A stretch of 35,288 nucleotides of DNA from Mesorhizobium sp. (GTDB lineage Bacteria > Pseudomonadota > Alphaproteobacteria > Rhizobiales > Rhizobiaceae): contig JAIPUZ010000036.1 in assembly GCA_022833215.1 (NCBI GenBank), forward strand, positions 1 to 35,288. The letters are read 5' to 3'. Below, piece after piece: positions 3,990 through 16,664 of this stretch. The number at the start of each line of letters is the position of its first letter. Positions within the stretch are counted from its first letter, which is position 1. The notes beneath the pieces were generated by a model. It saw only the letters and a program-made list of their open reading frames with translations. It made no database searches and was not told the origin of the DNA. The translations under genes were made by a program, and so were the position numbers.

Positions 3990-4179
3990 TCTGTTTGCGA
4001 CATTTCGAAGCGTCGCATCCGAACGAGGTCTTTGAAATTCGTTCGCGGAAATTGGCGATTTTAGCCTTCAAACCCGCTTGGGACAGCGGTTCTTGTCTGT
4101 TTGCGACATTGAATTCAACCGGAGGCAGCGGCACGCTTGCTCCAGTTGCGACATGCAAATTACGCCAGCGCATGTCGCA
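3990..4179. repeat. cluster of TTGCGACAT elements, direct and inverted
   Basis: Four copies of TGCGACAT lie in the spacer before the ABC transporter. Two are direct and embedded in an identical 15-mer, TCTGTTTGCGACATT, at 3990-4004 and 4096-4110. The third (4147-4156) and fourth (4170-4179) form a perfect inverted repeat, TGCGACATGC-N13-GCATGTCGCA. The first copy also pairs with a nearby GTCGCA (4012-4017), giving TGCGAC-N10-GTCGCA. The last pair ends 17 bases upstream of a candidate -35 box, the usual place for an activator site. I know of no regulator assigned to this motif. Confidence 0.7.
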
Positions 4180-4196
4180 TACAGTCCGGTTACGGG

Positions 4197-4226
4197 TTGA
4201 CCCAGACCGCATTATTCATCGTAATT
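4197..4226 (+). promoter_or_regulatory. candidate sigma-70 promoter of the ABC transporter operon
   Basis: A -35-like TTGACC at 4197-4202 is followed after 17 bases by a weak -10-like CGTAAT at 4220-4225, in an A/T-rich stretch that leads into the binding-protein gene at 4281. The weak -10 and the symmetric TGCGACATGC pair just upstream fit an activator-dependent promoter. This is prediction by eye. Confidence 0.4.
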
Positions 4227-4280
4227 GAAAAAATAAAAAGCGGCCGCAGGGTCGAACCACAGAGTGAGGGAGCTCTAAAA

Positions 4281-5873
4281 ATGTCAGGCGAACTGGATTT
4301 TCTAAGCCGTGCGGTTGCAACAGGCAAACTCAGCCGGCGCGATTTCCTCGGGCGCGCCGCGGCGCTTGGCGTCGGCGCGGCAATGGCGAACACGATTCTC
4401 GCCACAGCGGCCCGTGCGCAGACGCCGCAAAAAGGCGGTGCACTCAAGATGGGCCTCGTCGGGGGCGAATCCACCAACAGCCTCGACCCGGCCCAGTTCC
4501 TGACGCAGGTGCCGCAGAATTTCGGCTCCACCTGGGGTGAACTGCTGGTGCTCCAATCGCCGGAAGACGGCACCGCCCAGCCGGTTCTGGCGGAATCGTG
4601 GGACGCTTCCGACGATGCCACCGAATGGGCGTTCAAGATCCGCAAGGGCGTCACTTTCCACAACGGCAAGGATCTCACTCCCGATGACGTTGCCCAGACC
4701 ATCCGCCGCCATTCCGATGAGAACACGAAATCGGCCGCGCTCGGCGTACTGGGCGATATCGACGAGGTCGCGGTGGACGGCGACAACGTCGTCTTCAAGC
4801 TCAAGCGCGGCAATGCCGACCTGCCCCTCCTGCTGACGGACTACCATCTGATCATCCAGCCGAACGGCGGCTACGACGACCCGACCGCCGGCATCGGCAC
4901 CGGCCCCTACAAGGTGGAGGTGAACGAACCCGGCGTGCGCCACATGTCGGTGAAATATGACGGCTACTGGCGCGACGATGTCGGCCATGTCGATTCCGTC
5001 GAGGTGATCGTCATGAACGACACCACCGCCCGCATGGCGGCGCTGCAATCCGGTCAGGTGCACATCATCAACCGCGTGGAACCCAAGACCGTCGCCCTGC
5101 TCAAGCGCGCGCCCGGCGTCGTCGTCGTCAACGTGCCCTCCAAGGGCCACTATATCTTCCCGATGTTCTGCAACACCGCGCCGTTCGACAATGCGGACCT
5201 GCGCATGGCGCTCAAACTGGCCATCGACCGCGAGCAGATGGTGCAGCAGATCATGCAGGGCTACGCCTCGATCGGCAACGATTTCCCGATCTCCAAGAGC
5301 TATGCCCTTTATCCGGAAGGGATAGAGCAGCGGACCTACGATCCTGACAAGGCCAGGTTCCATCTCGAGAAATCCGGCCACAGCGGGCCGATCCTGCTGC
5401 GCACCTCCGACGTCGCCTTCCCCGGCGCCGTGGATGCCGCCCAGCTCTTCCAGCAGAGCGCGGCAAAAGCCGGCATCCAGATTCAGGTACAGCGCGAGCC
5501 GGGCGACGGCTACTGGACCGAGGTCTGGAACAAGCAGCCTTTCTGCGCCTCCTACTGGGGCGGTCGCCCGACACAGGATTCGATGTATTCGACGGCTTAC
5601 ATCACCGGCGCCGACTGGAACGACACGCGCTTCTTCAACGAGAAGTTCGACAAGATCATCCTTGAGGCGCGCGCCGAACTGGACAGCGCCAAACGCACGG
5701 AAATGTACCGCGATGCGGCCATGATCGTGCGCGACGACGGCGGCCTCATCCTGCCCATGTTCAACGACTTCATCGATGCCCATCGCGAGGAAGTGCAGGG
5801 CTGGGTCATGGACCCGAACCACGAAACCTCCAACCTCAAGGCGGCCATCCGTGTCTGGCTGAAGCAGGGTTGA
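4281..5873 (+). CDS. ABC transporter substrate-binding protein, dipeptide/nickel family (SBP_bac_5), Tat-exported
   Basis: Periplasmic binding protein of 530 residues in the DppA/OppA class. The N-terminus has a twin-arginine motif, SRRDFLG, followed by a hydrophobic stretch and an ARAQ-type cleavage region near residue 48, so it is probably exported folded. Family features include a VLAESWDASDDATEW segment, FKIRKGVTFHNGKDLTPDDV, and the C-terminal YRDAAMIVRDDGGLILPMFNDF block. The start at 4281 has GAGGGA about nine bases upstream. An open frame extends further upstream through the repeat cluster but lacks signal-peptide logic. It heads a four-gene transporter operon. This class carries peptides, nickel, opines, and other amino compounds; the substrate cannot be read from the sequence. 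Confidence 0.9.
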   Translation: MSGELDFLSRAVATGKLSRRDFLGRAAALGVGAAMANTILATAARAQTPQKGGALKMGLVGGESTNSLDPAQFLTQVPQNFGSTWGELLVLQSPEDGTAQPVLAESWDASDDATEWAFKIRKGVTFHNGKDLTPDDVAQTIRRHSDENTKSAALGVLGDIDEVAVDGDNVVFKLKRGNADLPLLLTDYHLIIQPNGGYDDPTAGIGTGPYKVEVNEPGVRHMSVKYDGYWRDDVGHVDSVEVIVMNDTTARMAALQSGQVHIINRVEPKTVALLKRAPGVVVVNVPSKGHYIFPMFCNTAPFDNADLRMALKLAIDREQMVQQIMQGYASIGNDFPISKSYALYPEGIEQRTYDPDKARFHLEKSGHSGPILLRTSDVAFPGAVDAAQLFQQSAAKAGIQIQVQREPGDGYWTEVWNKQPFCASYWGGRPTQDSMYSTAYITGADWNDTRFFNEKFDKIILEARAELDSAKRTEMYRDAAMIVRDDGGLILPMFNDFIDAHREEVQGWVMDPNHETSNLKAAIRVWLKQG

Positions 5874-5883
5874 GACGCACCTG

Positions 5884-6846
5884 ATGGGAAGTGCGCTTAT
5901 CCTGCGGCTGATCGCCCAGCGTCTCGCGCTGGGCGTTCTCCTCCTTTTCGCCGTCTCGGTGCTGATCTTCGCCGGCACGCAGATTCTTCCGGGCGATGTG
6001 GCCCAGTCGATCCTCGGACAGGCGGCAACGCCCCAGGCGCTGGAGAATCTCCGGCGCGAGCTCGGCCTCAACGATCCGGCCTATATCCGCTATTTCCGCT
6101 GGCTTGGCGGCGTGCTCACCGGCGATTTCGGTACCGCGCTCTCCAACCGGCGCGATATTGCGGAAGCGCTCGGCGGGCGGCTGTGGAACACGCTGTTCCT
6201 TGCCGGCTGCGCGGCGGTGATCTCGGTGCCGCTCGCCATTCTGCTCGGGCTGCTGGCCGTGCGCTACCGCAACGGCATCATCGACAAGGCGATCTCCGGC
6301 TTCGCGCTTGCCTCGACCTCCCTGCCCGAATTCTTCATCGGCTATCTGCTGATCCTGTTCTTCGCCGTTGAGCTGCAATGGTTTCCGGCCAGCTCGACCG
6401 TTTTCGACACCATGTCGTTCGGCGCGCGGTTGCAGGCCATCGCCCTGCCGGCCATCACGCTGACGCTGGTGGTGCTGGCGCACATGATGCGCATGACGCG
6501 CGCGGCGATCCTCAACGTCATGCAATCGGCCTATATCGAGACGGCTGAGCTCAAGGGGCTTTCCGCCTTCGACATCATCCGCAGGCATGCCATGCCCAAC
6601 GCCGTGGCGCCCATCGTCAATGTGGTGATGCTCAACCTTGCCTATCTCATCGTCGGCGTCGTCGTCGTGGAGGTGATCTTCGTCTATCCTGGCATGGGCC
6701 AGTATCTGGTCGACCATGTCTCCAAGCGTGACGTGCCGGTGGTGCAGGCCGTGGGCCTGATCTTCGCCGCCGTCTATATCGGCCTCAACATGATCGCGGA
6801 CATCGTGGCCATTCTGGCCAATCCCCGCCTCAGGCATCCGAAATGA
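5884..6846 (+). CDS. ABC transporter permease, DppB type
   Basis: Inner-membrane permease of 320 residues, the first of the two channel subunits. It starts with the characteristic N-terminal helix (RLALGVLLLFAVSVLIFAGTQILPGD), then QAATPQALENLRRELGLNDP and a LGGVLTGDFGTAL segment. These are typical of DppB/OppB/GsiC proteins. Several further hydrophobic helices follow. The cytoplasmic coupling loop that contacts the ATPase reads ETAELKGLSAFDIIRRHAMPNA, a good EAA-type motif. It lies ten bases after the binding-protein gene and is followed after nine bases by the second permease, so all four genes are likely co-transcribed. Confidence 0.93.
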   Translation: MGSALILRLIAQRLALGVLLLFAVSVLIFAGTQILPGDVAQSILGQAATPQALENLRRELGLNDPAYIRYFRWLGGVLTGDFGTALSNRRDIAEALGGRLWNTLFLAGCAAVISVPLAILLGLLAVRYRNGIIDKAISGFALASTSLPEFFIGYLLILFFAVELQWFPASSTVFDTMSFGARLQAIALPAITLTLVVLAHMMRMTRAAILNVMQSAYIETAELKGLSAFDIIRRHAMPNAVAPIVNVVMLNLAYLIVGVVVVEVIFVYPGMGQYLVDHVSKRDVPVVQAVGLIFAAVYIGLNMIADIVAILANPRLRHPK

Positions 6847-6855
6847 GGACCGCGC

Positions 6856-7686
6856 GTGCTTGACCTGAAACGCATTCCGCTGAGCGCCCTGATCGGCCTT
6901 TTCCTGACAGCGCTGTTCCTGTTCGCGGCTCTGTTCGCACCATGGATCGCTCCCTACGGAAATGGCCAGATCGTCGGCGACGTATGGGGGCCGATGTCGG
7001 CCACACATCTGCTCGGCACCGACAATCTTGGCCGCGACCTGCTCTCGCGCATGATCTACGGGGCGCGCATCACCATCTTCATCGCGGTGGCAGCCACGGC
7101 GCTCTCCTTCATCCTCGGCTCCGTGCTCGGCTTTACCGCCGCGGTGGTGGGCGGATGGATCGACCAGACCATGTCGCGCTTCGTCGACCTTCTGATGTCG
7201 ATCCCGACACTGATCTTCGCGCTGGTGGTGCTTTCCGTCCTGCCGTCGACGCTGATCACCCTCATCCTCGTCATGGGCATTCTCGACGCCACCCGCGTCT
7301 ATCGCCTTGCACGTGCCGTTGCAGTCGACATCAACGTCATGGACTTCGTGGAGGCTGCGAAACTGCGCGGCGAAGGCCGGTCCTGGATCATCTTCCGGGA
7401 AATCCTGCCAAATGCGCTGTCGCCGCTGGTCGCCGAGCTTGGACTGCGTTTCATCTTCGCGGTTCTGTTCCTGTCGGCGCTCTCCTTCCTCGGCCTCGGC
7501 GTGCAGCCACCGGACGCCGACTGGGGCGGCATGGTCAAGGAAAACAAGGACGGCATCGTGTTCGGCATCCCGGCTGCGCTGATCCCGGCCGGGGCCATCG
7601 CTCTGCTGGCGATCTCGGTGAACCTCGTGGCCGACTGGGTGCTGAACCGAACCTCCGATCTGAAGGGAGGCCGCGGCAATGGCTGA
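6856..7686 (+). CDS. ABC transporter permease, DppC type
   Basis: Second channel subunit, 276 residues, of the DppC/OppC class. It shows the short cytoplasmic N-terminus and first helix, then the periplasmic HLLGTDNLGRDLLSRMIYGARIT block diagnostic of DppC-like permeases. The EAA-like coupling loop is VEAAKLRGEGRSWIIFREILPNALSPL, and LSFLGLGVQPPDADWGGMV is near the C-terminus. The start is GTG at 6856 with GAGGA six bases upstream. Its stop overlaps the ATPase start by eight bases, indicating translational coupling. Confidence 0.93.
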   Translation: MLDLKRIPLSALIGLFLTALFLFAALFAPWIAPYGNGQIVGDVWGPMSATHLLGTDNLGRDLLSRMIYGARITIFIAVAATALSFILGSVLGFTAAVVGGWIDQTMSRFVDLLMSIPTLIFALVVLSVLPSTLITLILVMGILDATRVYRLARAVAVDINVMDFVEAAKLRGEGRSWIIFREILPNALSPLVAELGLRFIFAVLFLSALSFLGLGVQPPDADWGGMVKENKDGIVFGIPAALIPAGAIALLAISVNLVADWVLNRTSDLKGGRGNG

Positions 7687-9349
7687 ACAGACGAAGGCGA
7701 ACCCGCACGGCCCCGCCACGGGCACGCTGCTCGACATCCGCAACCTGCGCATCGAGGCGACCGTCTACCCTCCCGGCGAAGATCCGAAGAACGTCGTCAT
7801 CGTCGATGACGTGTCGCTCACCGTCGAGCGTGGCAAGGTGCTGGGGCTGATCGGGGAATCGGGAGCCGGCAAGTCCACCATCGGCCTGTCGTCCATGGGC
7901 TATGGCCGCGGAGGCGTGCGCATCACCGGTGGCGAGGTCATCCTCAACGGGCGCGACATCCTCAGGGATGAGCGGGGCCTGCGCAAGCTGCGCGGCAAGG
8001 AGGTGTGCTATGTCGCGCAGTCGGCGGCGGCCGCCTTCAACCCCGCGCACAAGCTGATGCGGCAGGTGGTCGAGGCCACGCTGGAACATGGCGTGTCGAG
8101 CCGCGAGGAGGCCGAAAAGCGGGCCGTGGACCTGTTCCGCCAGCTCAGCCTGCCCGATCCCGAAAATATCGGCGACCGGTATCCGCATCAGGTTTCCGGC
8201 GGGCAGTTGCAGCGCGTGATGACGGCAATGGCGCTGTGCTCGAAACCCGACCTCATCGTCTTCGACGAGCCGACCACGGCGCTCGACGTCACCACCCAGA
8301 TCGACGTGCTGGCGGCGATCAAGAAGGCGATACGGGACACGGGCGTGGCGGCGCTCTACATCACCCACGACCTGGCCGTCGTGGCGCAGGTGTCGGACGA
8401 CATCATGGTGCTGCGCCACGGCAAGACGGTGGAATGGGGCGATACGCGCCAGATCATCGAGAAGCCGAAGCAGGATTATACGAAAGCTCTCGTTTCGGTT
8501 CACGCCATCGACCACGAGGAACATGCGCCGACGCCAGTGCCGCTCCTTACGGTCGACAACGTCACCGCTTCCTATGGCGACGGCAGGGTGAAGGTCCTGC
8601 GCGATGTGAGCGTCGATATCCACCCTGGCCAGACGCTCGCAGTCGTCGGTGAATCCGGCTCCGGCAAATCCACGCTGGCGCGCGCCATCACCGGCCTGCT
8701 GCCCCCGGAAAACGGCTCGATCACCTTCGATGGCCGCACGCTCGCCAACAGGCTGGCGGACCGTCCCAAGGAGGACCTGCGCCAGCTCCAGATGATCTAC
8801 CAGATGGCGGACGTGGCCATGAACCCGCGCCAGACGGTCGGCACCATCATCGGGCGGCCGCTGGAGTTCTATTTCGGGATGCGCGGCGCCGAGCGTAACG
8901 CCCGTGTGGCCGAACTTCTCGACAAGATCGAAATGGGCAAGGGATTTGCCGACCGTTATCCGGCGGAATTGTCGGGTGGCCAGAAGCAGCGCGTGTGCAT
9001 CGCGCGGGCGCTGGCGGCAAAGCCGAAGCTCATCATCTGCGACGAGGTGACCTCGGCGCTCGATCCGCTGGTCGCGAACGGCATTCTGAAGCTGTTGCTC
9101 GAACTTCAGGCAGAGGAAGACGTGGCTTACCTGTTCATCACGCATGATCTGGCGACTGTGAGAGCCATCGCCGACTCCATCGCCGTGATGTATCGCGGCG
9201 AACTGGTGCGCTATGGGCCGAAGAGCAAGGTCCTCACCCCGCCCTTCGACGCTTATACCGATCTCCTGCTGTCGTCCGTTCCCGAGATGGAGGTCGGCTG
9301 GCTGGAAAAGGCAATCTCGAACAGGCGCATGGAGGCGGCGGGCAACTGA
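7679..9349 (+). CDS. ABC transporter double ATP-binding protein (DppD-DppF type fusion)
   Basis: Energises the transporter. The 556-residue protein holds two complete nucleotide-binding domains. The first has Walker A GESGAGKST (residues 59-67), signature VSGGQLQR and Walker B LIVFDEPT. The second has Walker A GESGSGKST (about residue 324), signature LSGGQKQR and Walker B LIICDEVT. Each half ends in the TALV/DLLL-type segment of peptide-class ATPases. The fusion replaces separate DppD and DppF subunits and is common in this family (GsiA/YejF-like). It is the last gene of the operon. Its end converges with the carnitine-type operon across about 50 bases in which I see no good terminator. Confidence 0.95.
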   Translation: MAEQTKANPHGPATGTLLDIRNLRIEATVYPPGEDPKNVVIVDDVSLTVERGKVLGLIGESGAGKSTIGLSSMGYGRGGVRITGGEVILNGRDILRDERGLRKLRGKEVCYVAQSAAAAFNPAHKLMRQVVEATLEHGVSSREEAEKRAVDLFRQLSLPDPENIGDRYPHQVSGGQLQRVMTAMALCSKPDLIVFDEPTTALDVTTQIDVLAAIKKAIRDTGVAALYITHDLAVVAQVSDDIMVLRHGKTVEWGDTRQIIEKPKQDYTKALVSVHAIDHEEHAPTPVPLLTVDNVTASYGDGRVKVLRDVSVDIHPGQTLAVVGESGSGKSTLARAITGLLPPENGSITFDGRTLANRLADRPKEDLRQLQMIYQMADVAMNPRQTVGTIIGRPLEFYFGMRGAERNARVAELLDKIEMGKGFADRYPAELSGGQKQRVCIARALAAKPKLIICDEVTSALDPLVANGILKLLLELQAEEDVAYLFITHDLATVRAIADSIAVMYRGELVRYGPKSKVLTPPFDAYTDLLLSSVPEMEVGWLEKAISNRRMEAAGN

Positions 9350-9599: not shown

Positions 9600-10382
9600 T
9601 CACCTGCCCTTCCAGACAGGATCGCGGCCTTCGGCGAAGGCGCGCGGACCTTCGGCATGGTCCTCGGAATCGTAGAGGATATCGACGGTCGGCAATTGCC
9701 GGCGCGTGACCTTGTTCATCGCCTCCTGGAAGGGCAGCCCTTCTGCGATGCGCACCGTTTCCTTGATGGCGGCGAACACAAGCGGCGGGCCGCTTTCCAG
9801 CAGCCGGGCGACTTCCCACACACGCTCTTCCAGCCTGTCGGCAGGCAGCACCTCGTTGACGAGCCCCCAGCGCCGGGCTTCCGCTGCATCCATCCAGCGG
9901 CCGGTGAAGAGCAGATCCATCGCGACGTGATAGGGCATGCGCTTCGGCAGCTTGATCGTGGCCGCATCGGCCAGCGTGCCGGCGCGGATTTCCGGCAGCG
10001 CGAAGCTGGAATGCCCGGAGGCGTAGATGAGGTCGCAGGAAAGCGCCAGCTCGAAGCCTCCGCCAACCGCCATGCCGTTGACGCAGGCGATCACGGGCTT
10101 GTTGAGGTCGCGCAGTTCCTGCAAGCCGCCGAAGCCGCCGACGCCATAGTCGCCATCCACCGCATCGCCGCCTGCGGCAGCCTTCAGGTCCCACCCGGCG
10201 CTGAAGAATTTCTCGCCGGCCGTCCGCACGATGGCGACGCGCAGTTCCGGATCGTCCCGGAACGCCCTGAAAGTTTCGCCCATCAGCCGCGATGTGGCCA
10301 AGTCGATGGCGTTGGCCTTGGGCCGGTCGAGCGTGACTTCAAGGATGCCGCCCTCGCGGCGGGTTTTCACGACATCGGACAT
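9600..10382 (-). CDS. caiD: carnitinyl-CoA dehydratase (crotonase family)
   Basis: Reversibly hydrates crotonobetainyl-CoA to L-carnitinyl-CoA. The 260-residue protein follows CaiD of E. coli closely as I remember it: ILEVTLDRPKANAID at the start, EKFFSAGWDLKAAA with the oxyanion-hole region, VNGMAVGGGFELAL, and the typical C-terminus EGPRAFAEGRDPVWKGR. It is the last intact gene of the minus-strand operon and overlaps the end of the CoA-ligase gene by 16 bases. CaiD resembles general enoyl-CoA hydratases, but the WKGR ending and operon context favour the betaine substrate. Confidence 0.88.
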   Translation of the reverse strand: MSDVVKTRREGGILEVTLDRPKANAIDLATSRLMGETFRAFRDDPELRVAIVRTAGEKFFSAGWDLKAAAGGDAVDGDYGVGGFGGLQELRDLNKPVIACVNGMAVGGGFELALSCDLIYASGHSSFALPEIRAGTLADAATIKLPKRMPYHVAMDLLFTGRWMDAAEARRWGLVNEVLPADRLEERVWEVARLLESGPPLVFAAIKETVRIAEGLPFQEAMNKVTRRQLPTVDILYDSEDHAEGPRAFAEGRDPVWKGR

Positions 10383-12493
10383 AAAGCCTCCTCCTTATCC
10401 GGGACCGCGACAGGAGCCGGACGCAGCACCAGCAGCGCATCGGCAATCCACGCGCCCATTCCCTGTTCGCAGACGATCAGCGGGTTGATATCCAGTTCCT
10501 CAATCTCGCGCGCGTGGTCGAGGACGTAACCGGCCAGCGCATGGATCGCATCGACGGCCGCAGCAAGATCGGCTTTTTCGCGCCCGCGATAACCATCCAG
10601 AAGCGGGAACAGCCGAAGGCTGCGCAAGCCGGCTTCGATCTCTGCCGGCGAGGCAGGCAGGAGCAGGGTTGTGCTGTCCTGAAGAAGCTCGACCAGAACG
10701 CCGCCGCTGCCCAGCGTCATCACGGGTCCGAAAACCGGATCGCGCGTCACGCCGACGATCAGTTCCGCCACCGCGCCCGAAACCATCCGCTCGACATAGA
10801 GGCCCTGCCCCAGCGCCATGAGCTTTTCAGCCTGTGCGCGAACCTCGCCACCTGATTTCAGGTTGAGTTTCACCGCGTCCAGTTCGCTCTTGTGGGCCAC
10901 GCCAAGCGCCTTGAGCGCCACCGGAAAGCCCAGCCGTTCTGCGGCAGCCACGGCTTCTTCCACGGTTGAAGTGCGCAGGCCGGCAGGCACGGCAAGCCCG
11001 GCGGCGGCAAGACGCGCTTTCGCCTCAGCTTCATCGGGCACCGTTGCCTGCCCGCCTGGAGCACCGTCCACGCCAGCCGCAAGCACCTTCTCCGGAGCGG
11101 GCTTTGCCCATACCTCGCCGATGAACGCCGCCGCCTCGGCCGCCTCCAGCGCTTCCGCGATGCCATGCAAAGGCACGATTCCGCGCGCGATCATCTGTTC
11201 GGCATGATGCTCCGGCAGATTTTCCGGCATGGTGGCGACGATGGCCCCGCGCGCGCCGTTGGCCTTCAATGCCGCCTCGAAGGCGGAGGAGGCAGTTGCC
11301 CAGTCGGCATCCGAGCAACGGTCCGCGCGCGGATAGTCGAGCACCAGCATGTCGAGATCGAACCCGCCTTGCACGAAAATGCCGAACGCCGCCTGCATCG
11401 CCGGACCGTCGTTCCAGATGAAGGTGTGGTAGTCGAGAGGATTTGCCGGCGCGACCAGCGGGCCGAGCACCTCGCGCACCTGCCGGCGGTGGTCCGCAGA
11501 AAGCGACGGGAAGCCCACTCCCCGACCGACCGCAGCGTCCGCGATCACCGAGGCTTCCCCGCCGGAACAGCTCATCGACGACAGGCGGCGCCCCGGCAGG
11601 GGGCCATGGACATGGACGAGCTTCAGCGCTTCCAGCAAGGAGGGGATAGAACCGACACGGGCAATGCCCAGCCGCCGCAGAAAGGCTTCGGAGCCGGCAT
11701 CGGAACCGGCCAGCGACGCCGTGTGCGAAATGGTGGCCGCGCGGGCCTGTTCGGAACGGCCAACCTTCATCGCAACAATGGGCTTGGCGAGTTCGCGGGC
11801 GCGCGCGGCCAGCCTTTCGAACCCGGAAACGCTGTCGAACCCTTCGATGTGCAGGCCAAGGCAGGAAACGCGTTCATCTTCGATCAGACCAAGGGCCATG
11901 TCGGACAGGCCGGTCTGCGCCTGGTTGCCCGCCGTCATCAGATAGGCCACCGGCAGGCCGCGCTGCTGCATCGACAGATTGATGGCGATGTTGGAGGACT
12001 GGGTGATGATGGCAGCGCCACGTTCGCCGGGTTTCAGCCGCCGCCCGCCATGCTGGTCCGGCCACAGCAGCGCCCCGTCGGCATAGTTGATGAGGCCATA
12101 GCAGTTGGGGCCGATGACGGGCATGTCGCCCGCCGCCGCAATCAGCTCCCGTTGCAGGCGCGCGCCTTCCCCCTCGTCCTCTCCGGCTTCCAGAAAACCG
12201 GAGGCGAAGCAGATGGCCCCGCCTGCCCCCATCGCCGCCAGCTCGCGGACGATCCCGATGGTGGCGAAACGGTTGACGCCGATGAACACCGCATCCGGCG
12301 CGCCCGGCAATTCCGCCAGCGAGGCAAAGGCGCGAACGCCCTCGATCCCGGTGCGCCTGGGATGAACCGGCCACACCTCGCCGGCAAACCCCATTTTCAG
12401 CGATTGCACGACCGCATTGGGAGCGTATGCCCCGCCGCCGATCACGGCGATGGACTTTGGCCGCAACAGGCGTTCGAGGCGGTTTACCGACAC
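10367..12493 (-). CDS. ADP-forming acyl-CoA synthetase, fused alpha-beta subunits
   Basis: A 708-residue NDP-forming acyl-CoA ligase (acetyl-CoA synthetase ADP-forming type). It has an N-terminal CoA-binding Rossmann domain (PKSIAVIGGGAYAPNAV), a succinyl-CoA-ligase-like domain with the phospho-histidine motif ISHTASLAGSD (His257), and a C-terminal ATP-grasp domain (GFPVALKALGVAHKSELDAVKLNL). Such enzymes interconvert acid + CoA + ATP with acyl-CoA + ADP + phosphate and are reversible. Within this operon the likely substrates are gamma-butyrobetaine, crotonobetaine, carnitine or betaine. The GTG start lies one base after the acyl-CoA dehydrogenase stop. Substrate assignment is inference from context. 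Confidence 0.88.
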   Translation of the reverse strand: MSVNRLERLLRPKSIAVIGGGAYAPNAVVQSLKMGFAGEVWPVHPRRTGIEGVRAFASLAELPGAPDAVFIGVNRFATIGIVRELAAMGAGGAICFASGFLEAGEDEGEGARLQRELIAAAGDMPVIGPNCYGLINYADGALLWPDQHGGRRLKPGERGAAIITQSSNIAINLSMQQRGLPVAYLMTAGNQAQTGLSDMALGLIEDERVSCLGLHIEGFDSVSGFERLAARARELAKPIVAMKVGRSEQARAATISHTASLAGSDAGSEAFLRRLGIARVGSIPSLLEALKLVHVHGPLPGRRLSSMSCSGGEASVIADAAVGRGVGFPSLSADHRRQVREVLGPLVAPANPLDYHTFIWNDGPAMQAAFGIFVQGGFDLDMLVLDYPRADRCSDADWATASSAFEAALKANGARGAIVATMPENLPEHHAEQMIARGIVPLHGIAEALEAAEAAAFIGEVWAKPAPEKVLAAGVDGAPGGQATVPDEAEAKARLAAAGLAVPAGLRTSTVEEAVAAAERLGFPVALKALGVAHKSELDAVKLNLKSGGEVRAQAEKLMALGQGLYVERMVSGAVAELIVGVTRDPVFGPVMTLGSGGVLVELLQDSTTLLLPASPAEIEAGLRSLRLFPLLDGYRGREKADLAAAVDAIHALAGYVLDHAREIEELDINPLIVCEQGMGAWIADALLVLRPAPVAVPDKEEALCPMS

Positions 12494-12494
12494 A

Positions 12495-13658
12495 TCAGCC
12501 TCCCACCGCCCTCAACAGGGCACGCGAAACGATGTGACGCTGGATTTCAGACGTGCCTTCCCAGATGCGCTCGACACGGGCGTCGCGCCAGATGCGCTCC
12601 AGCGGCAGGTCGTCCATCAGGCCCATGCCGCCATGGATCTGGATCGCCTCATCCGCCACGAAAGCCAGCATCTCCGTGGCCTTCAGCTTGGCCATGGCCA
12701 TGTCCTGATCGGTTACAGTACCCTGATCGTACTTCCACCCGGCTTCCAGAACCATCAGCTCGGCCGCCTTCAGTTCCGTCGCCATATCGGCCAGCTTGAA
12801 CGACACGCCCTGGAACTTGCCGATCTGCTGGCCGAACTGCTCACGCTGGGCGGCGTAGTCGATGGCGTGGGAAAGCGCCCGTTCGGCTCGCCCGAGGCAG
12901 GTGGCGCCGACTTGCAGGCGGGTCGCGCCCAGCCAGCTGTTGGCCACCTCGAAACCCTTGTGGACCTCGCCCAGCACCTGGCTCTTGGGCAGCCGGCAAT
13001 TGTCGAACTCCAGGACCGAATTGGTGTAGCCGCGATGCGAGACGTTGCGATAACCGTCGCGCACGGTGAAGCCGGGCGTGCCCTTGTCCACGAAGAAGGC
13101 GGTGATCTTCCTGCGCTTGCCGCGCGGCCCGTCCTCCTCGCCGGAGGCCATGAAACAGATGGCGAAATCGGCAATGTCGGCATGGCTGATGAAATGCTTG
13201 GTGCCGTTGAGCACCCAGTCGTCGCCATCCTGCACGGCGCTTGCCTTCATACCGCGCAGGTCCGATCCCGCACCGGGCTCTGTCATCGCCAGACAGTCGG
13301 ATTTTTCACCACGAATGCAGGGATAGAGATATTTCTCCTTCTGCTCGTCCGTTCCCGCAAGCAGGATGTTGGAAGGGCGCGCCACGCAGGTCCAGTGCAG
13401 CGCATAGTTGGCGCGGCCGAGTTCCTTTTCGTAGAGCAGCCACGTAACCGTATCGAGCCCCGCGCCGCCCACCTCTTCCGGCATATTGGCGGCGTAGAGG
13501 CCGGCAGCGATGGCCTTTTGCCTGATCTCCGCAACCAGTTCGGGGCGCAGATGCCCTGTGCGCTCCACCTCCGCCTCATGCGGATAAAGCTCGTTTTCGA
13601 CGAAAGCGCGCGTGGTTTCGACAATGGCGCGCTGCTCCTCACTCAGCCCGAAATCCAT
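12495..13658 (-). CDS. acyl-CoA dehydrogenase, CaiA-like (probable gamma-butyrobetainyl-CoA dehydrogenase)
   Basis: FAD-dependent acyl-CoA dehydrogenase of 387 residues. Visible are the FAD/substrate signature CLAMTEPGAGSD, GTKHFISHADIADF, the flavin-contact segment AAQREQFGQQIGKFQG, and the C-terminal IHGGMGLMDDLPLERIWRDARVERIWEGTSEIQ, with the catalytic glutamate in EGT. In this operon it would oxidise gamma-butyrobetainyl-CoA to crotonobetainyl-CoA, the substrate of CaiD, or run in reverse as in CaiA. The ATG at 13658 begins MDFGLSEEQR, the usual family N-terminus; the open frame continues upstream without similarity. It starts four bases after the carnitine dehydrogenase stop. Confidence 0.87.
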   Translation of the reverse strand: MDFGLSEEQRAIVETTRAFVENELYPHEAEVERTGHLRPELVAEIRQKAIAAGLYAANMPEEVGGAGLDTVTWLLYEKELGRANYALHWTCVARPSNILLAGTDEQKEKYLYPCIRGEKSDCLAMTEPGAGSDLRGMKASAVQDGDDWVLNGTKHFISHADIADFAICFMASGEEDGPRGKRRKITAFFVDKGTPGFTVRDGYRNVSHRGYTNSVLEFDNCRLPKSQVLGEVHKGFEVANSWLGATRLQVGATCLGRAERALSHAIDYAAQREQFGQQIGKFQGVSFKLADMATELKAAELMVLEAGWKYDQGTVTDQDMAMAKLKATEMLAFVADEAIQIHGGMGLMDDLPLERIWRDARVERIWEGTSEIQRHIVSRALLRAVGG

Positions 13659-13662
13659 CGCC

Positions 13663-14676
13663 CTACACCTTCTGCCCGGAAGCGCGCTTCGCCAGCCTGG
13701 CCGTGTAATCGTTGAGCAACTCGCCTGCTCCCCAGCCCCTGCCGTCGTTCTGGCGGCCAAGCGCCTGCATCATGGCGACGAGGTTGTCGTCGCGGATCTG
13801 CTCCAGTTCGCGGATCGACCATTTTCCGGACTGCTCGTCGGACTGGCCGGCAATCAGATCCACCAGTTCATCGTTGAATTCCGGCACATCGGTCAGCTTC
13901 GTCCACGGCCATTTCAGGCAGGGGCCGAACTGAGCCATGAAATGGCGCATACCGGCCTCGCCGCCAGCGATGCGGTAGACCTGGAACATGCCCATCTGCG
14001 CCCAGCGCAGACCGAAGGAATAGCGCATGATGTCGTCGAGTTCCTCGACGGTGCAGATGCCGTCCCTGATCAGCCACAGCGCCTCGCGCCACATGGCCTC
14101 CAGCAGCCGGTCACCGACGAACGCCTCAATCTCCCTGCGCACCACCACCGGCTTCATGCCGATGGAGGCATAGATTTCCTTTGCCTTTTCGATCGTATCC
14201 GGTGCGGTCGCCTCACCGCCCACCACCTCGACCAGGGGCAGCAGGTAAACCGGATTGAACGGATGGCCGACCACCAGCCGCCCGGGATTGCGCTTCATCG
14301 CGACCTGCATGTCGCTCGGCTTGATGCCGGAGGTGGACGATCCGATGACGGCATCAGCAGGAGCATGCTCATCGATTTCGGCAAGCACCTTGTGCTTCAG
14401 TTCAAGCCGCTCCGGCACGCTCTCCTGAATGAAGCCGGCATCCGCCACAGCCTCCGCGATGGTTTTTGCGAAGGTGAGCGTGCCTTCCCGCGGCAAGCCT
14501 TCCGGGCACATCTGCCGGTAGGCGCGACGCGCGCCCTGCATGACCGCGTCCACCTTGCGGGCGGCTTCCGGGTCGGGATCGAAAATCGAAACGTCGATGC
14601 CGTTGAGCAGCAGGCGCGCCACCCAGCCGGCGCCGATCACCCCGCCGCCGACGGCGGCTGCCTTGTGAATGGTCAT
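13663..14676 (-). CDS. lcdH: L-carnitine 3-dehydrogenase
   Basis: Oxidises L-carnitine to 3-dehydrocarnitine with NAD+. The 337-residue protein belongs to the 3-hydroxyacyl-CoA dehydrogenase fold: Rossmann glycine motif GGGVIGAGW at residues 10-18, GSSTSGI near 112, the catalytic HPFNP (His138), and YSFGLRWAQMGMF in the C-terminal helical domain, a segment I associate with carnitine dehydrogenases. Some rhizobial relatives are fused to a C-terminal betainyl-CoA thioesterase; this one is not, and no thioesterase gene is nearby. The ATG at 14676 is thirteen bases from the BKACE stop. Also called cdhA in Pseudomonas. Confidence 0.9.
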   Translation of the reverse strand: MTIHKAAAVGGGVIGAGWVARLLLNGIDVSIFDPDPEAARKVDAVMQGARRAYRQMCPEGLPREGTLTFAKTIAEAVADAGFIQESVPERLELKHKVLAEIDEHAPADAVIGSSTSGIKPSDMQVAMKRNPGRLVVGHPFNPVYLLPLVEVVGGEATAPDTIEKAKEIYASIGMKPVVVRREIEAFVGDRLLEAMWREALWLIRDGICTVEELDDIMRYSFGLRWAQMGMFQVYRIAGGEAGMRHFMAQFGPCLKWPWTKLTDVPEFNDELVDLIAGQSDEQSGKWSIRELEQIRDDNLVAMMQALGRQNDGRGWGAGELLNDYTARLAKRASGQKV

Positions 14677-14689
14677 GATTGCGCCTCCC

Positions 14690-15607
14690 TCAGATCGCCA
14701 GCGGCGCGCGCTTGGTGAGATTGAGCTTCCTGCGCACCTCTTCGGGCCCAATGACGCGCGCCCCCAGATTTTCCACAATGCTCACGGCGCGCTCCACAAG
14801 CTGGGCGTTGGTGGCGAACTGCCCCTTGCCGAGCCACAGATTGTCCTCCAGCCCGACGCGGACATTGCCGCCAGCCAGCACCGCCGCCGCCGCATAGGCC
14901 ATCTGGTTGCGGCCGAGCGCGAAGGCCGAGAATGTCCATTCCTTCGGCACATTGTTGACCATGGCCATGAAGGTGTTGAGGTCGTCCGGCGCGCCCCATG
15001 GCACCCCCATGCAAAGCTGCACCAGGGCGTCGGGGGCCAGAACGCCTTCCTTCACCAGTTCCTTCGCGAACCACAGATGGCCGGTATCGAAGGCTTCGAC
15101 CTCGGGCTTGACGCCCATTTCGGTCATCATGGAGCCCATCGCCCGCAACATGCCGGGCGTGTTGGTCATCACATAGTCGGCCTCGGCGAAATTCATGGTG
15201 CCGCAGTCGAGCGTGCAGATTTCAGGCAGGCACTGGCGCACATGCTCCACGCGTTCCGCAGCACCCGCCATGTCGGTGCCCTGCTCCTTCAGCGGCAACG
15301 GCGCCTCGGTGGAACCGAACACCATATCGCCACCCATGCCGGCGGTGAGGTTCAGCACCACGTCCACATCGGCGTCGCGGATGCGCTCCGTCACCTCGCG
15401 GTAGAGATGGATGTCGCGGCGGGGCGCTCCGGTCTCGGGGTCGCGCACATGGCAGTGCACGATTGCCGCCCCCGCCTTCGCGGCCTCGATAGCGGACTCG
15501 GCAATCTGCTGCGGCGAGCGTGGCACATGCGGGCTGCGGTCCTGCGTACCGCCGGATCCGGTTACGGCACAGGTGATGAACACCTCGCGATTCATCTCGA
15601 GCGGCAT
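14690..15607 (-). CDS. BKACE family beta-keto acid cleavage enzyme (3-dehydrocarnitine:acetyl-CoA)
   Basis: A 305-residue DUF849/BKACE enzyme with a TIM-barrel fold. These zinc enzymes react a beta-keto acid with acetyl-CoA to give acetoacetate and a new CoA thioester. The zinc-binding HCHVRDP motif is at residues 51-57, preceded by AAKAGAAIV, and TAGMGG and ALGRNQMAYAAAAVLAGGNVRVGLEDN follow, all typical. Next to carnitine dehydrogenase the expected reaction is 3-dehydrocarnitine plus acetyl-CoA to betainyl-CoA plus acetoacetate, the CdhC step of Pseudomonas. It is the first gene of the operon, with AGGAGGAGG a few bases before the ATG. An in-frame ATG four codons on is an alternative start. 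Confidence 0.88.
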   Translation of the reverse strand: MPLEMNREVFITCAVTGSGGTQDRSPHVPRSPQQIAESAIEAAKAGAAIVHCHVRDPETGAPRRDIHLYREVTERIRDADVDVVLNLTAGMGGDMVFGSTEAPLPLKEQGTDMAGAAERVEHVRQCLPEICTLDCGTMNFAEADYVMTNTPGMLRAMGSMMTEMGVKPEVEAFDTGHLWFAKELVKEGVLAPDALVQLCMGVPWGAPDDLNTFMAMVNNVPKEWTFSAFALGRNQMAYAAAAVLAGGNVRVGLEDNLWLGKGQFATNAQLVERAVSIVENLGARVIGPEEVRRKLNLTKRAPLAI

Positions 15608-15683: not shown

Positions 15684-16664
15684 ATGGCAAAAAGCGAAAA
15701 GACGACAATCTTCCGCGCCGAGCACACACCGCTCAAACTGACATTCCTGCTGTTTTCCGGCGCCTCGATCATGTGCATTGCCTCGGCCATAGATCCACTG
15801 CGTGCCGCCAACCGCATCGCCGGCGAGCGCCTCTTCGATTTCAGGCTGGTGTCGATGAACGGCGAGCCCGCCATGACCACCAGCGACCTGCCGGTGCCGG
15901 TGAGCGGACGCTTCGACCCGCGTGAGAGCACCGATGTCGTCGCCGTCATCGGCGGGTTCGGGATGAGGCAGCAGGGAACCGCCGCCCTGCTCGCCGCTCT
16001 GCGGCAGGCAGCGCGCCCGGCGCGCGCCATCGGCGGCATCGAGGCCGGCACATGGCTGGTCGGTCGCGCCGGATTGCTGGAAGGCCGCGCCGCCACCACC
16101 CACTGGGAGGATCTGGAGGATTTCGCCGCCGCCTTTCCCGGCGCCGATGTGCGGCCCGACCGCTACGTCATCGACGGCCCGGTGTTCACCTCGGGCGGCG
16201 CCTCGCCCACCTTCGACCTGATGCTGCACCTGATCCGCGCGCGGCTCGGCATGGCGGTGGCGCTCGATGTCGCCAGCGTCTTCATCTACGACCAGACGCG
16301 CGCCGCGACCGACGCCCAGCCGCTGGTATCGCTCGGCCGCCTCGACGGCTACGATGCACGGCTGGCACAGTCGGTCCGGCTGATGGAATCCCACATCGAC
16401 CAGCCGCTGACCATCGCCGGCGTGGCGCGGCGCGTCGGCCTCACGCCACGGGCGCTGGAGAACATCTTCCGCCGCTCGATCGGGGAGACGCCCGGCGCCT
16501 ATTACCTGCGCCTGCGCCTCAATGCGGCGCGCCGGCTGGTGGCCGACACGCGCCTGCCGATGGCCGACATCGCGGCTCGCACCGGCTTCTCGTCGGCCGC
16601 CACCTTCTCGCGCGCCTTCACCAGGGGGTTCGGCAGGGCGCCGTCCATGCTGCGGGGCAACTGA
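15684..16664 (+). CDS. GlxA/CdhR-like transcriptional regulator (DJ-1/PfpI-like domain plus AraC HTH)
   Basis: A 326-residue regulator with an N-terminal class-I glutamine-amidotransferase-like (DJ-1/PfpI) sensor domain, residues about 15-190, and a C-terminal AraC-type double HTH, residues about 225-326 (TIAGVARRVGLTPRALENIF, then MADIAARTGFSSAATFSRAF). The nucleophile-elbow cysteine of amidotransferases is replaced (GGIEAGTWLV), as expected for a ligand sensor. It diverges from the BKACE-carnitine dehydrogenase operon just as CdhR does from carnitine genes in Pseudomonas, so it probably activates that operon in response to carnitine or a relative. The open frame extends upstream but only the ATG at 15684 precedes recognisable family sequence. 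Confidence 0.87.
   Translation: MAKSEKTTIFRAEHTPLKLTFLLFSGASIMCIASAIDPLRAANRIAGERLFDFRLVSMNGEPAMTTSDLPVPVSGRFDPRESTDVVAVIGGFGMRQQGTAALLAALRQAARPARAIGGIEAGTWLVGRAGLLEGRAATTHWEDLEDFAAAFPGADVRPDRYVIDGPVFTSGGASPTFDLMLHLIRARLGMAVALDVASVFIYDQTRAATDAQPLVSLGRLDGYDARLAQSVRLMESHIDQPLTIAGVARRVGLTPRALENIFRRSIGETPGAYYLRLRLNAARRLVADTRLPMADIAARTGFSSAATFSRAFTRGFGRAPSMLRGN

Follow-up and report, generated by a model that had tools for sequence, protein, structure and literature searches.

The stretch analysed here (hereafter the window) comprises 35,288 nucleotides of Mesorhizobium sp. and carries a five-gene operon on its minus strand, at positions 9600–15607. We read this operon as a route for the catabolism of gamma-butyrobetaine and L-carnitine, in which its acyl-CoA ligase would activate gamma-butyrobetaine and a stand-alone thioesterase (TE) encoded on another contig, C92, would hydrolyse betainyl-CoA. 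We put the probability of this reading at about 70%. The pathway would be mostly an ordinary one, with its thioesterase most likely encoded elsewhere in the same genome. An earlier note on this DNA, made from the sequence alone, had proposed that the ligase takes the place of a missing thioesterase and makes ATP on release of the products, and had offered activation of gamma-butyrobetaine as the alternative.

Gene content and layout of the operon

The window lies on contig C36 of a source assembly of 131 contigs and 4.5 Mb. Pfam and NCBIfam profile matches bear out the five genes of the operon:

14690–15607, minus strand: BKACE (3-dehydrocarnitine cleavage enzyme), the first gene of the operon; PF05853, E 1.6e-98
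13663–14676, minus strand: L-carnitine 3-dehydrogenase (CDH), without a C-terminal TE domain; NF005716 and CDH tree
12495–13658, minus strand: acyl-CoA dehydrogenase (ACAD), proposed gamma-butyrobetainyl-CoA dehydrogenase; PF00441, PF02770 and PF02771, and linkage to the ligase and CaiD
10367–12493, minus strand: single-chain NDP(ADP)-forming acyl-CoA ligase, proposed gamma-butyrobetaine:CoA ligase; Pfam domains, PDB sequence matches, residue comparisons and fold match
9600–10382, minus strand: CaiD-type crotonobetainyl-CoA hydratase; NF002936, E 4.9e-92

NF002936, the best NCBIfam match of CaiD, scores 307.9 bits, under its cut-off of 500. The likely starts of CDH (14676) and ACAD (13658) lie inside the mechanical open reading frames and were placed from profile matches. 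On these coordinates, 13 bases separate BKACE from CDH, 4 separate CDH from ACAD and 1 separates ACAD from the ligase, while the ligase and CaiD overlap by 16; locus L003 has the same spacings (13, 4, 1, -16). Relatives of the locus were taken as the best 80 of 425 candidates, mainly from Mesorhizobium and its kin, and the nearest named relative among them is Aquamicrobium defluvii, with a ligase 95% identical. In 76 of these 80 loci all five genes are found side by side, and the remaining four are broken by a contig end. The grouping is not chance.

In the proposed pathway, the ligase would charge gamma-butyrobetaine with CoA, converting ATP to ADP and phosphate via a phosphohistidine at His257. 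ACAD would then form crotonobetainyl-CoA, which CaiD would hydrate to carnitinyl-CoA. Carnitine could be freed from this thioester either by the C92 TE or by the ligase in reverse, the latter being plausible. CDH would oxidise the free carnitine to 3-dehydrocarnitine, and BKACE would combine this with acetyl-CoA to yield betainyl-CoA and acetoacetate. Finally, betainyl-CoA would most likely be hydrolysed by the C92 TE, doing the work of the TE domain that is fused to CDH in related genera.

The ligase and its partner genes

The role of the ligase is best read from the company it keeps. Twenty loci were chosen for having the ligase distant from CDH or on a different contig. ACAD and CaiD lie alongside the ligase in 18 of them and CaiD alone in the other two (L197, on a short contig, and L199); no CDH at least 40% identical was found in the 20 loci, and BKACE in one. 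Because the ligase accompanies ACAD and CaiD away from CDH, we place it in a gamma-butyrobetaine module, and gamma-butyrobetaine:CoA ligase is proposed as the best reading of its function. The activating role that the earlier note had kept as an alternative is supported by this linkage, and also by the retention of a TE in the cluster in 24 of the 30 ligase-bearing genera examined.

A TE of the fused-domain family occurs in one of the 20 stretches (L189, genome G594), where its open frame also contains a CDH-like segment that matches poorly (27% identical); the other 19 modules are unlike it. Seven paralogous loci (L215–L218, L221, L223 and L224) bear a ligase about 41%, a BKACE about 52% and a CDH about 39% identical to those of the window, and ACAD and CaiD are present in six of the seven. 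These loci suggest a second, related pathway.

The ligase carries CoA-binding, Succ_CoA_lig and ATP-grasp_5 domains in one chain, all above the Pfam cut-off, and its sequence places it in the NDP-forming (ADP-forming) acyl-CoA ligase superfamily. The phosphorylatable residue H257 is histidine in all 65 aligned ligases, the window's included, and aligns with His292 of DddX; the intact His257 and ATP-grasp reported earlier are thereby confirmed. The best sequence matches in the PDB are 8wzu (E 9.4e-62, in two stretches) and DddX, 7cm9 (E 5.1e-60, in one stretch covering residues 11–703). An AlphaFold2 model of the ligase (mean pLDDT 87.9) has DddX as its top fold match, with a TM score of 0.84–0.85.

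DddX produces dimethylsulfoniopropionate (DMSP)-CoA from a sulfonium substrate, and docking and mutation served to identify the residues that bind its cation (PMC8163506). Phe435 of DddX corresponds to W398 in all three of our alignments, in a column that is W in 59 and F in 6 of 65 ligases. Trp391 corresponds to W360 in the 65-ligase alignment (W in 65 of 65) and in the profile comparison. W360 and W398 are therefore candidate cation-binding residues, as judged by alignment. The elimination base of DddX, Glu432, falls opposite D395 in all three alignments, in a column that holds D in 27 ligases, A in 12, P in 12 and other residues in the rest. Since this base is not conserved, a DMSP lyase step is not expected in the ligase. 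These correspondences point softly to an onium carboxylate substrate that would be activated without elimination; the substrate and the forward direction of the ligase are inferences.

Several observations weigh against this substrate assignment. By sequence, the 4-hydroxybutyrate ligase 8wzu scores slightly above DddX; pairwise alignment puts H356, not W360, opposite Trp391; and Tyr181 of DddX lands on three different residues in the three alignments and was left unused. In addition, W360 is also kept in ten paralogous ligases (39–43% identical), in which position 398 varies. The ligase of locus L014, 29% identical, has no residue aligned at 398.

Thioesterases and the release of betainyl-CoA

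Pseudomonas has a separate betainyl-CoA thioesterase. The earlier note held that no thioesterase exists here, which is right for the operon and wrong for the genome. The window CDH scores 590.2 bits against the NF005716 cut-off of 592 and covers model positions 3–334 of 495. The TE domain of this fused model (positions 341–494) is absent, and there is no space for a remnant. Likewise, of 78 close relatives with a CDH match, 77 lack any extension and one has 60 residues; a fused TE match was found in none of the 78, and a stand-alone TE lies nearby in two. The genome was also searched for hot-dog thioesterases, as the earlier note had proposed. The two hot-dog Pfam models searched gave 7 matches (4HBT_2) and 11 matches (4HBT) in the whole genome, and neither of these two models had a match on C36.

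The fused TE domain has two stand-alone relatives in this genome, at C92:59967-60407 and C28:27544-27975. Both match a query built from eight aligned fused TE domains, at E 5.8e-38 (C92) and E 2.3e-28 (C28). The C92 protein covers positions 341–494 of the fused CDH model, its TE part, at E 2.2e-34, below the whole-protein cut-off. Phyllobacterium phragmitis (L021) and Phyllobacterium sp. 628 (L067) also have TE-less operons, and in both the regulator gene is followed on its own strand by a C92 orthologue (66% identical and 35 bases from the regulator in L021, 63% and 103 bases in L067). On the TE tree, the Phyllobacterium orthologues, C92 and a sequence from the same-genus genome G248 fall in one clade (100/100). 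This regulator-linked orthologue is the strongest evidence for C92 as a functional replacement, and it is chiefly from it that we infer which thioesterase acts. A C92-type stand-alone TE is encoded by each of the 14 order genomes whose operon was found to lack a TE (for seven other genomes of the window's genus, the TE-less state was read from the lack of a TE match near CDH) and by 27 of 44 other order genomes with CDH, whose operons were checked only in part.

The candidacy of C92 has points against it as well. Among 239 order genomes with no CDH at E <= 1e-80, 86 encode a C92-type TE, and so it may serve another substrate. In its own genome, the C92 TE adjoins a GlcD-like FAD enzyme, not carnitine genes, and this arrangement is retained in five of eight TE loci compared. 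On the TE tree, a single branch (97/96) separates the 17 stand-alone sequences from the 33 fused ones, and C92 is thus no detached copy of the fused TE. The contig 28 protein could be considered for the same role on the strength of its match to the fused TE alignment, but this is highly improbable: the match is weaker than that of C92, a branched-chain ABC transporter and a thiolase nearby point to a different acyl-CoA pathway, and a second match to the TE alignment was found in only one of seven other same-genus genomes tested, where it is weak. Within the stretch G000:C28:18000-37000 (L142), the gene for this protein and the final part of a branched-chain ABC permease gene overlap, and thiolase, SDR and MaoC genes lie near. 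The annotation of Sinorhizobium numidicum places a PaaI-type TE close to a ligase.

A more serious rival, though still an unlikely one, is the ATP-making release that the earlier note favoured, in which the ligase acts in reverse on betainyl-CoA and/or carnitinyl-CoA and replaces the lost TE. Combined with forward use on gamma-butyrobetaine, the ligase would become an ATP-neutral CoA recycler. We examined CDH loci fetched from 40 order genomes (39 plus G024) and from 38 of the 48 matching genomes in the rest of the class; further order genera with a ligase beside CDH stand outside this sample. Strict replacement seemed to fit the order sample perfectly: a ligase is present in 22 of the 40 loci, 16 with a fused TE and 6 without, and of the 18 loci lacking a ligase, 17 bear a fused TE while the last has a separate TE downstream, so all six TE-less loci carry the ligase. 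Some fused TEs first flagged as separate were counted as fused where re-reading showed that the segment crosses a stop upstream of the true CDH start; open frames and the lengths of the CDH extensions support fusion in these cases. On a tree of 58 CDHs, including 17 of the 80 close relatives, the TE-less-with-ligase state needs three changes, of which at least two are forced by starred branches. No TE of the fused family was found in the fetched stretches of 19 of the 20 isolated ligase modules, nor in any of ten paralogous ligase stretches, seven of which have BKACE and CDH.

The wider comparison does not sustain strict replacement as a rule. In the class sample, BKACE and CDH are present in three f133 and two f117 genomes, representing two genera, where a TE of the fused-domain family is not found nearby and the ligase has no match at E <= 1e-130; each of the five encodes a stand-alone TE. 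For two of these five loci, L146 and L166, visual reading of the listed open reading frames revealed no TE gene; no family search was made there. By genus, TE-less operons number 6 of 30 with a ligase versus 3 of 32 without (p = 0.29). This tally leaves out L150, L156, L157 and L160, whose neighbourhood is BKACE-less, and L155, L158 and L185, where BKACE is present; once the latter three are added, p rises to between 0.74 and 1.0. The genus lists were compiled by hand, the genera are not fully independent, and several genera tallied as lacking a cluster ligase possess a ligase elsewhere. Because TE loss is not tied to the ligase by genus, energy-conserving release of betainyl-CoA is not favoured, and it is further weakened by the TE relatives encoded in the window's own genome, the Phyllobacterium linkage of C92 and the large share of ligase-bearing genera that retain a TE.

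As an explanation for the missing operon TE, an unlinked TE does no worse than the ligase, and it accounts for the TE-less genera without a ligase too. Neither association is strong. The link between TE-less operons and a stand-alone TE elsewhere is weak: such a TE is found in eight of nine TE-less genera versus 16 of 34 tested genera with an operon TE (p = 0.055), and the widened comparison (8/9 versus 22/42 genera) gives p = 0.064. Genome G400, whose compact ligase operon is TE-less, gave no TE match at E <= 1e-12. With the isolated and paralogous ligase stretches that lack a TE of this family, it keeps reverse use of the ligase plausible, above all on carnitinyl-CoA. This genome would be the clearest case for a bidirectional enzyme: in lineages without an operon TE, one onium-specific ADP-forming ligase might load gamma-butyrobetaine and unload carnitinyl-CoA and betainyl-CoA, either via the phosphohistidine or with ATP formation, and the breakdown of gamma-butyrobetaine to glycine betaine would then conserve thioester energy. 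We regard this extension as doubtful. The G400 ligase and CDH are 44% and 47% identical to those of the window, and the substrate may differ. Far less probable again is transfer of CoA from betainyl- or carnitinyl-CoA to acetoacetate, gamma-butyrobetaine or another acid by a class III or SCOT-type CoA transferase. The genome does encode four CoA_transf_3 proteins and six CoA_trans domains in three places, but neither model has a match on the window contig, and both families have many other roles.

Neighbouring genes and likely counterparts

Two further features flank the operon:

15684–16664, plus strand: GbdR/CdhR-like AraC-family regulator, divergent from the operon; NF052371, E 1.2e-61, under the cut-off
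4137–9349, plus strand: Dpp/Opp-type ABC transporter (binding protein, permeases and ATPase), convergent with the operon; SBP_bac_5, BPD_transp_1 and ABC_tran

The mechanical open reading frame of the regulator begins at 15411, and its real start was judged to lie near 15684. In most of the 80 relatives, wherever the contig extends that far, the regulator adjoins BKACE. The transporter is a candidate uptake system for carnitine or gamma-butyrobetaine. In Rhizobium etli IE4803, the order of genes is BKACE, fused CDH/TE, ACAD, acyl-CoA synthetase and caiD, followed by an Opp-type transporter whose genes are 61–70% identical to those at 4137–9349 of the window. A binding protein at least 40% identical to the window's was found in 27 of the 80 close-relative loci as fetched.

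Some relatives carry additional genes between members of the operon. The gap between BKACE and CDH exceeds 350 bases in 38 of 76 relatives (for example, L082:7082-7726), and five such inserts that were read are all alike. The scanned example is an HD-domain protein, a distant relative of the PhnZ/TmpB oxygenases (TIGR03276, E 5.9e-8, below the cut-off; PhnZ in the PDB, E 6e-5), and its sequence makes a diiron oxygenase acting on quaternary amines possible. The insert had been considered as the missing TE and was rejected on this domain assignment. Between ACAD and the ligase, the gap exceeds 350 bases in 10 of 79 relatives (for example, L018:9252-10001); here, too, five inserts were read and are all alike, and the one scanned is a DUF2161 protein (PD-(D/E)XK-like).

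The analysis proposes a substrate for a widespread ligase that is annotated merely as 'acetate--CoA ligase family protein', and it puts forward a specific protein as candidate for the betainyl-CoA thioesterase that the operon lacks. Gamma-butyrobetaine use emerges as a separate module of ligase, ACAD and CaiD, joined to the carnitine module in some genera. Should the ligase prove reversible on the downstream products, energy that is lost through hydrolysis in other bacteria would be regained during aerobic breakdown of carnitine.

The likely known counterpart of the window ligase is BcoAB of Sinorhizobium meliloti, which forms gamma-butyrobetainyl-CoA with ATP and CoA, a reaction already in print (PMC8364193). 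Both enzymes are ATP-dependent and alphaproteobacterial, and the substrate proposed for the window ligase is that of BcoAB; no record under the name BcoAB was found among those searched. In Rhizobium etli, an acyl-CoA synthetase related to the window ligase is annotated with fused CDH/TE and ACAD to one side of it and caiD to the other. With DddX, the ATP-dependent DMSP lyase, the ligase shares a full-length fold and the phosphohistidine, and in two of the three alignments both candidate cation-binding aromatic residues line up, but identity is only 24–25% and the elimination base is not conserved. The CDH of S. meliloti also turns betainyl-CoA into glycine betaine, according to a passage of PMC12482172, and the domain that carries out this conversion is absent from the window CDH. 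Compared with the fused CDH/TE of Rhizobium (NF005716), the dehydrogenase part is alike, whereas the TE domain is matched here by the separate contig 92 protein. In Pseudomonas, the route from carnitine to glycine betaine runs through a dehydrogenase, BKACE and DhcAB (PMC12482172). The window operon follows the same carnitine-to-betaine chemistry; unlike the Pseudomonas route, it is without a TE gene and has the gamma-butyrobetaine module joined on.

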